Below are positions 1,105 through 16,254 of a DNA stretch of 16,254 nt, one piece after another. The DNA comes from a candidate division KSB1 bacterium (lineage in GTDB: Bacteria; Zhuqueibacterota; JdFR-76; DREG01): NCBI GenBank assembly GCA_022566355.1, contig JADFJB010000106.1:1-16254 (forward strand), given 5' to 3'. The translations under genes and the position numbers were made by a program. The number at the start of each line of letters is the position of its first letter. The stretch's first letter is position 1. The notes beneath the pieces were generated by a model that did not search any database, was not told the DNA's origin, and was given only the letters and a program-made list of their open reading frames with translations.

Positions 1105-2023
1105 TCACAAATATTTTTCCAACCAACGGGTGAGATTTACTGGTTTGTTTTTTCCGGTTTGAATGAATAAGTCCCTCATCCCAGCTGGGTTTTGATCAAT
1201 AATTCGACTGTAGACAAAATGTTTGCCGTTCGGAGAGAAGGCAGGATTGTATTCAAAACCATCCCTGTCGGAATAACCGGTTAAACTTCCGGACTCAAGA
1301 TCAAGCAACATAATCTTGTTTTTGTGCCATTCCGAAGGTAAAGGGTTTTCTTTTCTACTAAAATCAAGAGTTCTTCCGTCTGTTGACCAGCTCACACCAC
1401 CATTAACAGTCCAGCCTCCCTCTGTCAATCTTTTGGTTTTTTTGTTATTTATGTTCAGGATAAACAAATGAGACGAAAGGTAGGATTGAAAATCCAAATA
1501 GCCATGAGGTTTCACTTCAAAGGCTTTTATAAAGGTTTCACTTTCCGACTTTTGTGGTTTTTCATCTCTTGCAATAAATGCGATCTTAGTCTCATCCGGG
1601 CTCCAATAAAAACTGGATACGCCAGTTTTGTGATTGCTGATCACTTCGGATTTACCATTTTGGAATTCCTGTATGACAATTTGGCTCTGGTTATTAATCC
1701 TGGCCACATACGAAAGGTATTTTCCGAGGGGACCATTGCACATCTCTCACCTCTTTTTGATCAAAATTTAACTCAGTGATCTTTTTTGACTTCATATCCA
1801 TTAGCTGATTTTTATTAATCCATCGATTGGTTTCGAAATCCGCTTTACGTGTGGAGAAAAGTAAAAAGTCACCATCCGGTGTAAATTGTAATCCGCCCAA
1901 ACTGATCGAATTCTTATTGTATTCATCCCAATCAAATGGCTGGGGGGTTGTTTGACTGATTGCACTAAGGCAATTGGCAATTACAAATAAAATAATTGTG
2001 ATTAGTTTAATTCTGTTTTTCAT
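1105..2023 (-). pseudogene. S9-type peptidase beta-propeller fragment, frameshifted and lacking the catalytic domain
   Basis: The start is ATG 2023, preceded by AAAAAGG, and a signal peptide follows (MKNRIKLITIILFVIANCLS). The product contains PD40/TolB-like propeller blades: FTPDGDFLLFSTRK, WSPDETKIAFIARDE, WSTDGRTLDFSRKE and FSPNGKHFVYSR. Such N-terminal propellers precede the alpha/beta-hydrolase domain in dipeptidyl aminopeptidase/acylaminoacyl peptidases (S9). The reading frame breaks near 1722: the upstream frame reads VQWSP then runs to a stop at 1694, while the downstream frame resumes GKYLSYVARIN. Adding two bases (GA) would restore WSPDGKY, so a 2-bp deletion is the simplest lesion. 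The second frame then stops at 1105 after about 300 residues in total, with no Ser-Asp-His hydrolase domain, which normally adds roughly 250 residues. Two independent defects make a functional peptidase unlikely. Sequencing error could explain the frameshift but not the missing domain. Confidence 0.75.
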
Positions 2024-2106
2024 TATGATTACCTTTTTGTAGGTTTGACTCATTTAATTCGAGTTGAATTAATTCTCTTTATATTGGTAGTCAGTTTCTG
2101 CTTTAT

Positions 2107-12340: not shown

Positions 12341-13477
12341 CTACAAATTGCCTCTTCGTTCCTGTTCTATCTCGATGCTCTCAAAGAGCGCTTTGAAATT
12401 ACCGACACCAAAACCCTGGGAGCCTCTTCGCTGGATAATCTCTAGAAACAGGGTCGGGCGGTCCTGGATCGGTTGCGTAAAAATCTGCAGCAAATAACCC
12501 TCATCATCACGATCAGCCAATATACCAAGTTCGGCAATATCTTTATAGCTTTCTTTGATATCACCAATTCGATCCGGGAGAGCCTCGTAATAGGATTTAG
12601 GCACTTGCAAAAATCGTAATCCACGACCCCGTAACTCACGCATGGTTTGGATAATATCACCCGTAATTAAAGCGAGGTGCTGAACACCCGGACCCAAATT
12701 ATAATTTAAATATTCTTCAATCTGACTCTTTTTTCTCCCCTCGGCAGGCTCGTTGATGGGAAATTTTATTCTGCCGCTGTCGTTGGACATCACTTTGCTC
12801 ATCAAGGCAGAATACGCGGTATGGATCACTTTATCATCAAAATGGAGGATCTGGCGAAAGCCAAGCACTTGATGAAACCAGTTTACCCAGTAGTTCATCT
12901 TGCCCAGTTCAACGTTACCCACAATATGATCTATCGCTGCAAGCCCTGCAGGTTTCACGGTTGCATCATCGGGTAATGGCATGTAGCCAGGCATGAAAGC
13001 GCCGGTGTAATTTGTGTTTTCTATGAATTTGATCAATGTTTCCCCATAACAACGCAGAGAAGCAGTCTTAATCGAACCAAATTCATCTGATTTTTCGTTA
13101 GGTTCTTCAGCATTTACACCCCCACGAATTGTAGTCTCATGCCATGCTTTTTCAACATCATCGACGCTAATTACAATCGACTTCACCCCATCGCCATGCA
13201 TCAGTATATGTGTTGCCATTGCACTATGGGGATTATATGGAGTATTGAGTACTAACCGAATCTTATTTTGTTCCAAGACCCAGCTGGCAAATTCACGGTT
13301 GCCGGTTTCCAGCCCGCTATATGCAATAGCCTTGAAACCCAGGGTCTTCCAGAAAAACATATTTTGGTAGGCATTACCCACCCATAATTCCACATGATCG
13401 ATAGCATTGAGTTTTAAAAAGTCGCCCTCTTGATCAATTGCACGTTTTTCTTCTTTTACATCAACCATTACTGCCAT
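12341..13477 (-). CDS. hppD: 4-Hydroxyphenylpyruvate dioxygenase
   Basis: This non-haem Fe(II) enzyme converts 4-hydroxyphenylpyruvate to homogentisate, the second step of tyrosine breakdown after transamination. The product has two vicinal-oxygen-chelate halves: NAIDHVELWVGNAYQN near the N-terminus and AAIDHIVGNV in the catalytic half. Counting from ATG 13477 (378 residues), the Fe ligands are His184 (DHIVGNV), His267 (GPGVQHLAL) and Glu346 (LFLEIIQR). The substrate-pocket segments PINEP and QIEEYL and the C-terminal GFGVGNFKALFESIE are present. I prefer ATG 13477 to 13498 because GGAGG lies 8 nt before it. It overlaps the 3' end of the Lrp gene by 17 bp. TAG ends the gene. All key residues are intact. 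Confidence 0.95.
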   Translation of the reverse strand: MAVMVDVKEEKRAIDQEGDFLKLNAIDHVELWVGNAYQNMFFWKTLGFKAIAYSGLETGNREFASWVLEQNKIRLVLNTPYNPHSAMATHILMHGDGVKSIVISVDDVEKAWHETTIRGGVNAEEPNEKSDEFGSIKTASLRCYGETLIKFIENTNYTGAFMPGYMPLPDDATVKPAGLAAIDHIVGNVELGKMNYWVNWFHQVLGFRQILHFDDKVIHTAYSALMSKVMSNDSGRIKFPINEPAEGRKKSQIEEYLNYNLGPGVQHLALITGDIIQTMRELRGRGLRFLQVPKSYYEALPDRIGDIKESYKDIAELGILADRDDEGYLLQIFTQPIQDRPTLFLEIIQRRGSQGFGVGNFKALFESIEIEQERRGNL

Positions 13478-13955
13478 TTTTATTGCCTCCATTTTCATTG
13501 ATGGTTACTTTGGTCTCATATTTTACTGTTGACAAAACAAAAGATGTTCTTATTTTATTCACACCGGGAATTTGGCTGATTTTATGCAGAATAAAATTTT
13601 CATATTCTTTGATATTGTCTACGGCTACTTTCAGAACAAAATCGTCTTCACCGGTAATGTGGAAACATTCCAGAATTTCGTCCAGTTTATCGATCTCCTC
13701 CTTAAATCCATCAACCGAAGTTAATTGATGAACAGTCAAAGACACAGACACAATGGCCATAATTCCCTTACCGACTTTTTCGCGATCCAATAGAGCTACA
13801 TATCGCTGAATAACCCCCGTATTTTCCAGTCGTTTCACCCTCTCCAGCATACCTGGAGGCGAGATGCCAATATCTGCAGCTAATTTAGCATTAGTGATCC
13901 GTCCCTCGGATTGAAGAATATCGAGAATTTTTCTATCTGTTTGATCTAATTTCAT
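13461..13955 (-). CDS. Lrp/AsnC-family transcriptional regulator
   Basis: A 164-residue protein. An N-terminal winged helix (LDQTDRKILDILQSEGRITN, AKLAADIGISPPGMLERVKRL) is followed by the RAM ligand-binding/oligomerisation domain (GIMAIVSVSLTV, HITGEDDFVLKVAVDNIKEY, IPGVNKIRTSFVLSTVKYET). Lrp-type proteins form octamers that sense amino acids. The hppD start lies within the end of this gene, so the two are co-transcribed and probably translationally coupled; tyrosine or phenylalanine is the likely effector (inference). The C-terminal NENGGNKNGSNG tail is an extension created by the overlap. A consensus-like promoter lies about 40 bp upstream. It diverges from the amino-acid permease at 14295, a natural second target. 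Confidence 0.9.
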   Translation of the reverse strand: MKLDQTDRKILDILQSEGRITNAKLAADIGISPPGMLERVKRLENTGVIQRYVALLDREKVGKGIMAIVSVSLTVHQLTSVDGFKEEIDKLDEILECFHITGEDDFVLKVAVDNIKEYENFILHKISQIPGVNKIRTSFVLSTVKYETKVTINENGGNKNGSNG

Positions 13956-14294: not shown

Positions 14295-15599
14295 ATGAAC
14301 GAATTAAAACGACAACTTGGCTTAAGCACGGCAATCGCTACAGTCATCGGCGAAGTCATAGCCGTTGGCATATTTCTGACTCCCGCCGGGATGATCAAAT
14401 CAATTGGATCGCCATTTTGGTTGTTAATCGTTTGGCTGACCATGGGTTTAATGGCTATTTGCGGAGCTCTTTGTTATGGTGAGCTGGCCACCAGGTTTCC
14501 CGAAGCCGGTGGCGGTTATGTCTATTTGCGTGAAGCGTTCGGAAAACCGATCGCATTCCTTTATGGTTGGAAGTCATTCCTGGTAATGGATCCCGGCATC
14601 ACCGCGGCGCTTGCCGTAGGTTTGGCAAGCTATGTTGGTTACATGGTCAAACTTGCGCCATTCGGGATCAAAATAGTTGCCATATCAACCATTCTTATTC
14701 TAGCCGCAGTTAACATTATTGGCATCCGGTTAGGCGCCTGGTTAATACGTGGTTTAACATTCATTAAAGTGGGCTTTTTAATGTTTATTGCAATATGGGC
14801 AGTTGGATTTCAATTGGGTGACTTGTCCAACCTGCAGCCATTTTTTCAACAGAGATCCGGATCAGATCCGTTGCCGGTAGCATTAGCCGGGGGCATTGTT
14901 GCTGCTTTCTTTTCGTTCGGAGGCTGGTGGGATGCCGGTAAAATCGCCGGGGAAATAACTGATCCAAATCGGAATTTACCACGTGCTTTCATCTACGGCG
15001 TACTGGTTATTACAACAGTTTATATCATAACGACTATGGTTTTTTTGTATTTAGTACCGGTTCAAGATGTAACTTCCGGAGAGACTTTTGCAGCCCAGGC
15101 CGGTGAAGTTCTTTTTGGCTATGCCGGCGGACAAGTATTTTCGATCATCGTTATTATTTCGGTGTTGGGAAGTCTGCTGGCTATCATTATGACAGCTCCC
15201 CGGGTGTATTATGCGATGGCGCGAAATAAATTATTTTTGAGCGCTGCTGCTAAGGTGCATCCAAAATATGGTACCCCTGCGCGAGCGATTATCTTACAAG
15301 CTATGCTCGCCTCCATTCTGGTAGCGCTTGGCACTTTTAATCAAATCGTATCTTATTTTGTTTTCGTAACGGTCTTCTTCATCGCTTTAACAGTCATTGC
15401 TTTGTTTATCCTGCGTAAAAAACAAAGCGGTTCGACTGGTTATTTAACTCCCGGATATCCCTGGACTCCCGCTATTTTTTTGTTTTTGATCATAGGTTTA
15501 CTTGTGCTTTTGGCCGGTAATAATCCACTGCAAGTATTACTTGGTGTGGGTGTAGTTCTTTTAGGAATACCGGTTTATTATTTTAATTTCAAGAGATAA
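14295..15599 (+). CDS. APC-superfamily amino-acid permease
   Basis: A 434-residue integral membrane protein with about 12 hydrophobic segments. The start IATVIGEVIAVGIFLTPAGM carries the GIF loop of TM1 typical of the amino acid-polyamine-organocation family. FPEAGGGYVYLREAFGKPIA (TM3 entry) and FFSFGGWWDAGKIAGEITDP (TM6 region, followed by NRNLPRAF) are further family motifs. It would import amino acids with H+ or Na+, or exchange them. Its divergence from Lrp-hppD suggests an aromatic amino acid as substrate (inference). No Shine-Dalgarno is seen before ATG 14295, but the next Met codons would cut TM1. Its TAA overlaps the AAGGAGG of the next gene. Confidence 0.9.
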   Translation: MNELKRQLGLSTAIATVIGEVIAVGIFLTPAGMIKSIGSPFWLLIVWLTMGLMAICGALCYGELATRFPEAGGGYVYLREAFGKPIAFLYGWKSFLVMDPGITAALAVGLASYVGYMVKLAPFGIKIVAISTILILAAVNIIGIRLGAWLIRGLTFIKVGFLMFIAIWAVGFQLGDLSNLQPFFQQRSGSDPLPVALAGGIVAAFFSFGGWWDAGKIAGEITDPNRNLPRAFIYGVLVITTVYIITTMVFLYLVPVQDVTSGETFAAQAGEVLFGYAGGQVFSIIVIISVLGSLLAIIMTAPRVYYAMARNKLFLSAAAKVHPKYGTPARAIILQAMLASILVALGTFNQIVSYFVFVTVFFIALTVIALFILRKKQSGSTGYLTPGYPWTPAIFLFLIIGLLVLLAGNNPLQVLLGVGVVLLGIPVYYFNFKR

Positions 15600-15604
15600 G
15601 GAGG
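15598..15604 (+). promoter_or_regulatory. Near-perfect Shine-Dalgarno of the AhpD-like gene
   Basis: AAGGAGG begins within the permease stop codon and lies 8 nt before ATG 15613. It is the strongest ribosome site in the window and shows the downstream gene is set up for efficient translation, coupled to the permease. Confidence 0.8.
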
Positions 15605-15612
15605 TTAACTAC

Positions 15613-16182
15613 ATGACATGGATTAAAACAATCCCGGTTTCAGAAGGAGATGAACGACTACGCAAAGCCGTAGAAGGACAGGCCTCATTATACCCTTCGG
15701 AATATGATGATCCTGTTCATCCATCCGGTGAAGGATCTTCTGATATTGTTGCATCCCACAGCTTAATCCCGGATGCTGCCTTTCATGCATTTGCGACTTA
15801 CGGCGTTTTACTGTCACCGGATCTGCCGTTGACCCGTCAGCAGCATGAAATGCTTGCTACGGTCGTCTCCGCACAAAATCGTTGTGTGTACTGAATTGAA
15901 TCTCACGCAGAGTTTCTGCGTCGCATTAATATTGATGAAAAACTTGTTCAGACATTGGAACAGGATTACACCCAAGCCGATTTATCCGATCAAGATCGCG
16001 TTATGTTGGATTATGCAGTAAAGATAACAAAAGATGCAACCAAGGTTCATCCCGGCGATCATGAGAAGCTTAGATCGGTTGGTTTTGACGATACGGCAAT
16101 ATTACAAATTACCCTGATTGCATCCTGGTTTAATTACATTAACCGGGCTGCAGATGCGTTGGGTGTTGGGAGGGAAGGATAA
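15613..16182 (+). CDS. AhpD-like peroxidase-related protein, probable selenoprotein (CxxU, in-frame TGA at 15892-15894)
   Basis: The frame from ATG 15613 to TAA 16182 is open for 189 residues apart from one TGA at codon 94. The flanking translation is [13 protein letters not shown]-(TGA)[12 protein letters not shown], the AhpD/carboxymuconolactone decarboxylase-type CxxCxxxH site with TGA at the second Cys. Glu79, Cys91, codon 94 and His98 have the same spacing as Glu118, Cys130, Cys133 and His137 of mycobacterial AhpD. The downstream part ([39 protein letters not shown]) is intact. AhpD-like selenoproteins with CxxU are a known bacterial class, and a hairpin suited to bSECIS starts 10 nt after the TGA. 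TGA is an ordinary stop elsewhere here (barrel gene, Lrp, vapB). It would reduce peroxides or act as a thiol oxidoreductase. The alternative is a nonsense mutation of a Cys codon. Confidence 0.75.
15905..15921 (+). promoter_or_regulatory. Candidate bacterial SECIS hairpin
   Basis: ACGCAG (15905-15910) and CTGCGT (15916-15921) form a perfect 6-bp stem with the loop AGUUU. The loop starts 17 nt after the TGA, has G at its second position followed by U, and lies inside the coding frame, all within the loose consensus for bacterial SECIS elements as I recall it. The lower stem is weak. Folding and comparison to SelB-binding elements were not done. Confidence 0.55.
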
Positions 16183-16254
16183 GCATAAGGTATATTTGAA
16201 AAAACTCCCATTTCCAAAAAAATATTTCCTTATAAACCATAATTGTGTAAATTA

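Follow-up and report, generated by a model that had tools for sequence, protein, structure and literature searches.

Does the TGA codon that interrupts a reading frame near the end of a contig from a candidate division KSB1 bacterium specify selenocysteine, or is it a lesion in a broken gene? The analyzed stretch of DNA (the window, 16,254 nucleotides) is the entire contig C106 (JADFJB010000106.1) of a draft genome of 4.62 Mb, which consists of 213 contigs and is 98.5% complete. Positions 15613–16182 translate to one frame of 189 residues, in which TGA at 15892–15894 (residue 94) is the sole interruption before the TAA stop; the single frame broken only by TGA that was described in the initial annotation is borne out by this translation. 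The locus contains the following features.

14295–15599, plus strand: gene of an amino acid permease of the APC family (PF13520), separated by 13 bp from the selenoprotein gene that follows.
15600–15604, plus strand: GGAGG ribosome-binding site, recognized from sequence, right behind the permease stop codon.
15613–16182, plus strand: gene of a predicted AhpD-like (TIGR01926 peroxidase-related) selenoprotein of 189 residues, in which Sec is residue 94.
15847–15849, plus strand: codon of Glu79, proton-relay position, 12 residues before Cys91 (compare Glu36 and Cys48 of PA0269).
15883–15885, plus strand: codon of Cys91, the partner of Sec94.
15892–15894, plus strand: in-frame TGA, predicted to encode selenocysteine 94 at the second CxxC position.
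15904–15906, plus strand: codon of His98, proton-relay position.
15905–15921, plus strand: predicted upper stem-loop of a bacterial SECIS element, formed by ACGCAG (15905–15910), the loop AGTTT (15911–15915, G second) and CTGCGT (15916–15921).

A repeat terminates the contig 72 bp past the gene. The last 189 bp of the window (16066–16254) run from the 3′ part of the gene into the DNA beyond it. They recur with 100% identity inside contig C43 (L036 6920–7108, minus strand), where the Sec part of the gene is absent. The GC content of the window contig, 0.387, equals that of the other contigs in the genome. Both the GC content and the repeat identity fit the membership of the contig in this genome without proving it.

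The protein belongs to the peroxidase-related AhpD-like enzymes. It matches NCBIfam TIGR01926 with 113.9 bits (curated cut-off 81.8) and Pfam PF02627 (CMD), and its relatives by sequence in the PDB are the peroxidase-related AhpD proteins 2pfx, 2oyo, 3c1l, 2prr, and 6k40. A fold search with the AlphaFold model (pLDDT 76.6), which is predicted to have the all-helical AhpD fold, returns the same AhpD-like set as best matches. Residues E79, C91, Y93, U94, and H98 reproduce the AhpD proton relay of Glu, Cys, His/Tyr, Cys, and His at fixed spacing, so that the relay residues E79, C91, U94, and H98 named in the initial annotation are all present, and in the alignment of homologues the TGA codon stands for the second cysteine of CxxC. 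The spacing is identical to that of Glu36, Cys48, Tyr50, Cys51, and His55 in PA0269, the relay of which has been described (PMC3141380). The five PDB relatives and PA0269 share the fold and the E-x11-C-x-Y-C-x3-H relay with the window protein; however, they have Cys at the position of its Sec. The relay of Mycobacterium tuberculosis AhpD (1gu9/1knc), Glu118-Cys130-Cys133-His137 (PMC3141380), has the same spacing, but the overall similarity of the two proteins is very low, the catalytic helix pair is located elsewhere, and the fold match is weak. The window protein resembles two related families of AhpD-type selenoproteins; nevertheless, it is a member of neither NF041238 (AhpD_rel_CFYUT, 54 bits, cut-off 175) nor NF053654 (YciW-related (seleno)protein, 31.6 bits, cut-off 310). 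A second AhpD-like paralogue from the same genome (L035, G000 C108:6110–6574) is 31% identical and has an ordinary CEYC motif.

Relatives of the gene were identified by scanning genome contigs with peptide patterns that did not cover the CxxC motif, and the best 80 of 258 were kept. These 80 are 65–72% identical to the window protein and come from drafts of Acidobacteriota, Gemmatimonadota, and Latescibacterota. All of them carry TGA at the equivalent of codon 94, followed by the hairpin, and two further members from the phylum of the window, which are 64–66% identical, also carry TGA. Cysteine at this codon, or a lesion, occurs in none of the 83 sequences examined (80 loci, the window, and the two members from its phylum). 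More distant TIGR01926-type homologues in the window's phylum, about 42% identical, have TGA at the same codon.

Comparison of the window gene with five relatives gives pN values of 0.17–0.22 and pS values of 0.82–0.94, the latter saturated, and the values are equal before and after the TGA. The part of the gene behind the TGA is thus under full purifying selection, which excludes a relic shared by the whole family. The statement that the protein flanking the TGA is conserved and free of other lesions proved correct, since the gene contains neither a frameshift nor an extra stop and is selected equally before and behind the TGA. Judged from these sequences, codon 94 is almost certainly a selenocysteine codon and not a lesion, with UGA read as Sec; the selenoprotein reading proposed initially is strongly supported by the homologues, with TGA in 83/83 examined members of the close subfamily.

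The stem-loop ACGCAG-AGTTT-CTGCGT starts 10 nucleotides past the TGA. The folding energy of the window sequence by itself is unexceptional (z about −1), and a single-sequence z-score is uninformative here. The evidence beyond chance is comparative and comprises the TGA in relatives, silent-site conservation, and pairing. Codons 99–102 (GCA GAG TTT CTG) are identical in 81/81 sequences, codon 98 in 79, and codon 103 in 78, even though four to six synonymous codons are available for each of Ala, Leu, and Arg. By contrast, the flanking Ser97 and Arg104 use many codons. The mean codon entropy is 0.07 for codons 98–103 versus 1.31 for other conserved columns of the 81 sequences (Mann-Whitney p 2.6e-5, uncorrected for relatedness among the sequences). 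This freeze of silent sites is the footprint of an RNA element. The relatives from the window's phylum that are about 42% identical have the stem ACGGAG/CTCCGY in place of ACGCAG/CTGCGT, a compensatory exchange of C-G for G-C, and stem pairing is kept in 95.6% of cells, compared with 25–52% for slid controls. Since only one pair covaries, the covariation evidence is modest by itself. Taken with the silent-site conservation, these comparisons indicate that the TGA is followed by a SECIS-like hairpin with a G in its apical loop that is conserved as RNA. Rfam contains no matching family.

The selA gene accompanies the selenoprotein gene in nearly all carriers tested. Of 40 carrier genomes tested from other phyla, 37 have SelA above the cut-off and 39 have at least some match. 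Six of the carriers from Latescibacterota and Gemmatimonadota, G076, G082, G086, G087, G089, and G093 (L167, L183, L192, L196, L200, and L205), have two SelA-like genes each, a strong one that lacks the N-terminal 60–70 positions and a full-length one that is weak. In the phylum of the window, selA is above the cut-off in 44 of 59 genomes, including both genomes of the same family, the first of which also has tRNA-Sec. A search of the window's genome for the machinery, as suggested initially, recovered only part of it. The genome has a selD gene whose catalytic position (TCGUAAK) is encoded by an in-frame TGA, with a stable hairpin behind it, but the draft yielded no selA, no selB above the cut-off, and no tRNA-Sec. 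The selD gene (L118 / L128 8838–9812; G000 C12:35945–36865) adjoins genes of a phosphonate-type ABC transporter (substrate-binding protein, ATPase, and permease), which is perhaps a selenium uptake system. The best matches to selB are translation GTPases or CysN: the candidate on contig C43 of the window's genome is CysN, and the best match, a frame of 400 residues on C37, was assigned to EF-Tu by its size and score. ARAGORN identifies the tRNA-Sec-like matches that score around the gathering threshold or lower as ordinary tRNAs.

The missing components raise the alternative that the gene descends from selenoprotein genes but is carried by an organism that has recently lost Sec insertion, in which case UGA would end translation after residue 93 and the gene would be a fresh relic. 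Besides the lack of selA, selB, and tRNA-Sec in the assembly, the existence of a decayed copy agrees with such a course: an internal deletion has removed the Sec part from a relative in G035, a genome that does contain selA. This copy (contig C43 of G035, L033 / L125 10200–10430) is 65% identical to the window gene, and the deletion joins approximately residue 8 to residue 138, so that the Sec codon and the active site are gone. However, the window's genome retains an intact selD containing TGA, and the window gene has no frameshift or other stop and is under equal selection on both sides of the TGA. Furthermore, machinery gaps occur elsewhere: selA is missing in 3 of 35 genomes of the phylum with TGA-containing selD (the window's genome, G032, and G033), and a tRNA-Sec match above the cut-off is missing in at least 9 of 44 with selA, so holes of this kind are no rarity. 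The selA and selB genes lie side by side in the five nearest genomes examined; therefore, one gap would hide both. The neighbors of selA in the same-family genomes, an MFS gene and a membrane-protein gene, were likewise not found in the window's genome, and synteny therefore cannot tell an assembly gap from loss. The absence of selA, selB, and tRNA-Sec is most likely an assembly or binning gap, and recent loss of Sec insertion is improbable.

One might suspect a mistake in sequencing or assembly, or an ordinary nonsense mutation in what was a TGC/TGT codon for cysteine, because the sequence comes from a single draft assembly and the contig ends so close behind the gene. Nevertheless, both are rejected as contradicted by the homologues, since the same TGA, with the conserved hairpin, recurs in 80 independent assemblies and in the two additional members from the window's phylum, which leaves this explanation a negligible chance. 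The reading of UGA as Trp or Cys through general recoding or a suppressor is equally hard to credit, because TGA is the normal stop of several window genes (for example, the 8330–9481 gene and the Lrp gene), which rejects genome-wide recoding, the only tRNA-Trp met in those parts of the genome that were scanned for tRNAs has the anticodon CCA, and the conserved downstream hairpin and co-occurrence with selA fit Sec.

The preferred reading, to which we assign a probability of about 0.9, is that the gene encodes an AhpD-fold thiol/selenol oxidoreductase with SECIS-driven incorporation of Sec94 that functions as follows. During translation, UGA-94 and the hairpin at 15905–15921 would recruit SelB carrying Sec-tRNA(Sec), so that selenocysteine would take the second place in the CxxC motif. 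The relay of Glu79 and His98 may activate Sec94 for attack on a peroxide or another electrophilic or oxidized substrate, in a peroxidase-type reaction. Cys91 would then resolve Sec94 as a selenenylsulfide, which a thioredoxin- or lipoyl-type reductant could reduce. The gene would be co-transcribed, and probably translationally coupled, with the amino acid permease gene, the stop codon of which abuts the GGAGG.

The same permease (48–67% identical) adjoins the gene in 21 of the best 80 of 258 relatives, directly upstream in 19 and downstream in 2. In G120, from the window's phylum, a 66% identical permease is located about 1.1 kb upstream. In 35 other loci, a nearby gene, mostly downstream, resembles an AMP-dependent ligase, a likeness judged by eye only. 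The pairing with the permease is recurrent, not obligatory, and it may reflect a functional link. The initial annotation regarded the setting of the gene as undescribed; this holds for the permease pairing, of which no description was found, but not for the larger "peroxidase-related" subfamily, in which such selenoproteins had already been predicted. Elsewhere in the window, a 4-hydroxyphenylpyruvate dioxygenase gene overlaps an Lrp/AsnC regulator gene (12341–13955, minus strand), and the latter is divergent from the permease gene. Two overlapping open reading frames in different frames at 1105–2053 (minus strand) look like one frameshifted protein of the beta-propeller/peptidase type.

AhpD-like CxxU selenoproteins are a known class, as the initial annotation held. 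The first prediction of COG2128 members came in 2005 from the Sargasso Sea study, with 27 sequences (PMC1088965); such proteins were among the commonest selenoproteins in GOS (PMC2398784), and are listed under TIGR01926 with CxxU in a 2026 review (PMC13188914). The Sargasso Sea/GOS proteins share with the window gene the family by profile, Sec at the second CxxC position, and a SECIS-like hairpin with G in a small apical loop. The window gene belongs to this known COG2128/TIGR01926 CxxU kind, and its novelty is modest. The clade of the window gene appears to differ from the Sargasso Sea/GOS family in its near-invariant SECIS, its frequent permease neighbor, and its own conserved N-terminal segment, Y27-P28-x-E30-Y31-x-x-P34 ... 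G41, I45-V46-x-S48-H49, in a comparison that did not extend to the published representative MCB9421940.1. A dedicated model for this subfamily was not found in NCBIfam release 20, and the literature searched, including that on selenoproteins in Acidobacteria, contained nothing on it. What appears to be new is a widespread subfamily that has Sec in every member examined and a near-frozen 18-nucleotide SECIS stem-loop, and that is often located beside the same permease.

In a tree that left out the two members from the window's phylum at 64–66% identity, the window protein is placed within the clade from Acidobacteriota, Gemmatimonadota, and Latescibacterota (support 100/99) and away from the proteins of its own phylum that are 42% identical. 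The patchy spread suggests horizontal transfer, while loss is also possible. The base composition of the window gene lacks a recent foreign signature. We tentatively propose, as a speculation that is unlikely to hold in full, that this AhpD-like subfamily, with Sec in every member examined, has spread across phyla, probably by horizontal transfer together with the permease, and that the two genes form a module, the selenoenzyme acting on compounds that are oxidized or electrophilic and are linked to what the permease transports.

The clade comprises at least 83 sequences, mostly from uncultured soil and groundwater lineages. Automatic annotation would end the gene at residue 93 and drop the catalytic part of the protein; however, since the SECIS element is near-frozen at the nucleotide level, the clade is easy to model and easy to correct in databases. 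The recurring permease offers an initial clue to what AhpD-like selenoproteins do physiologically.
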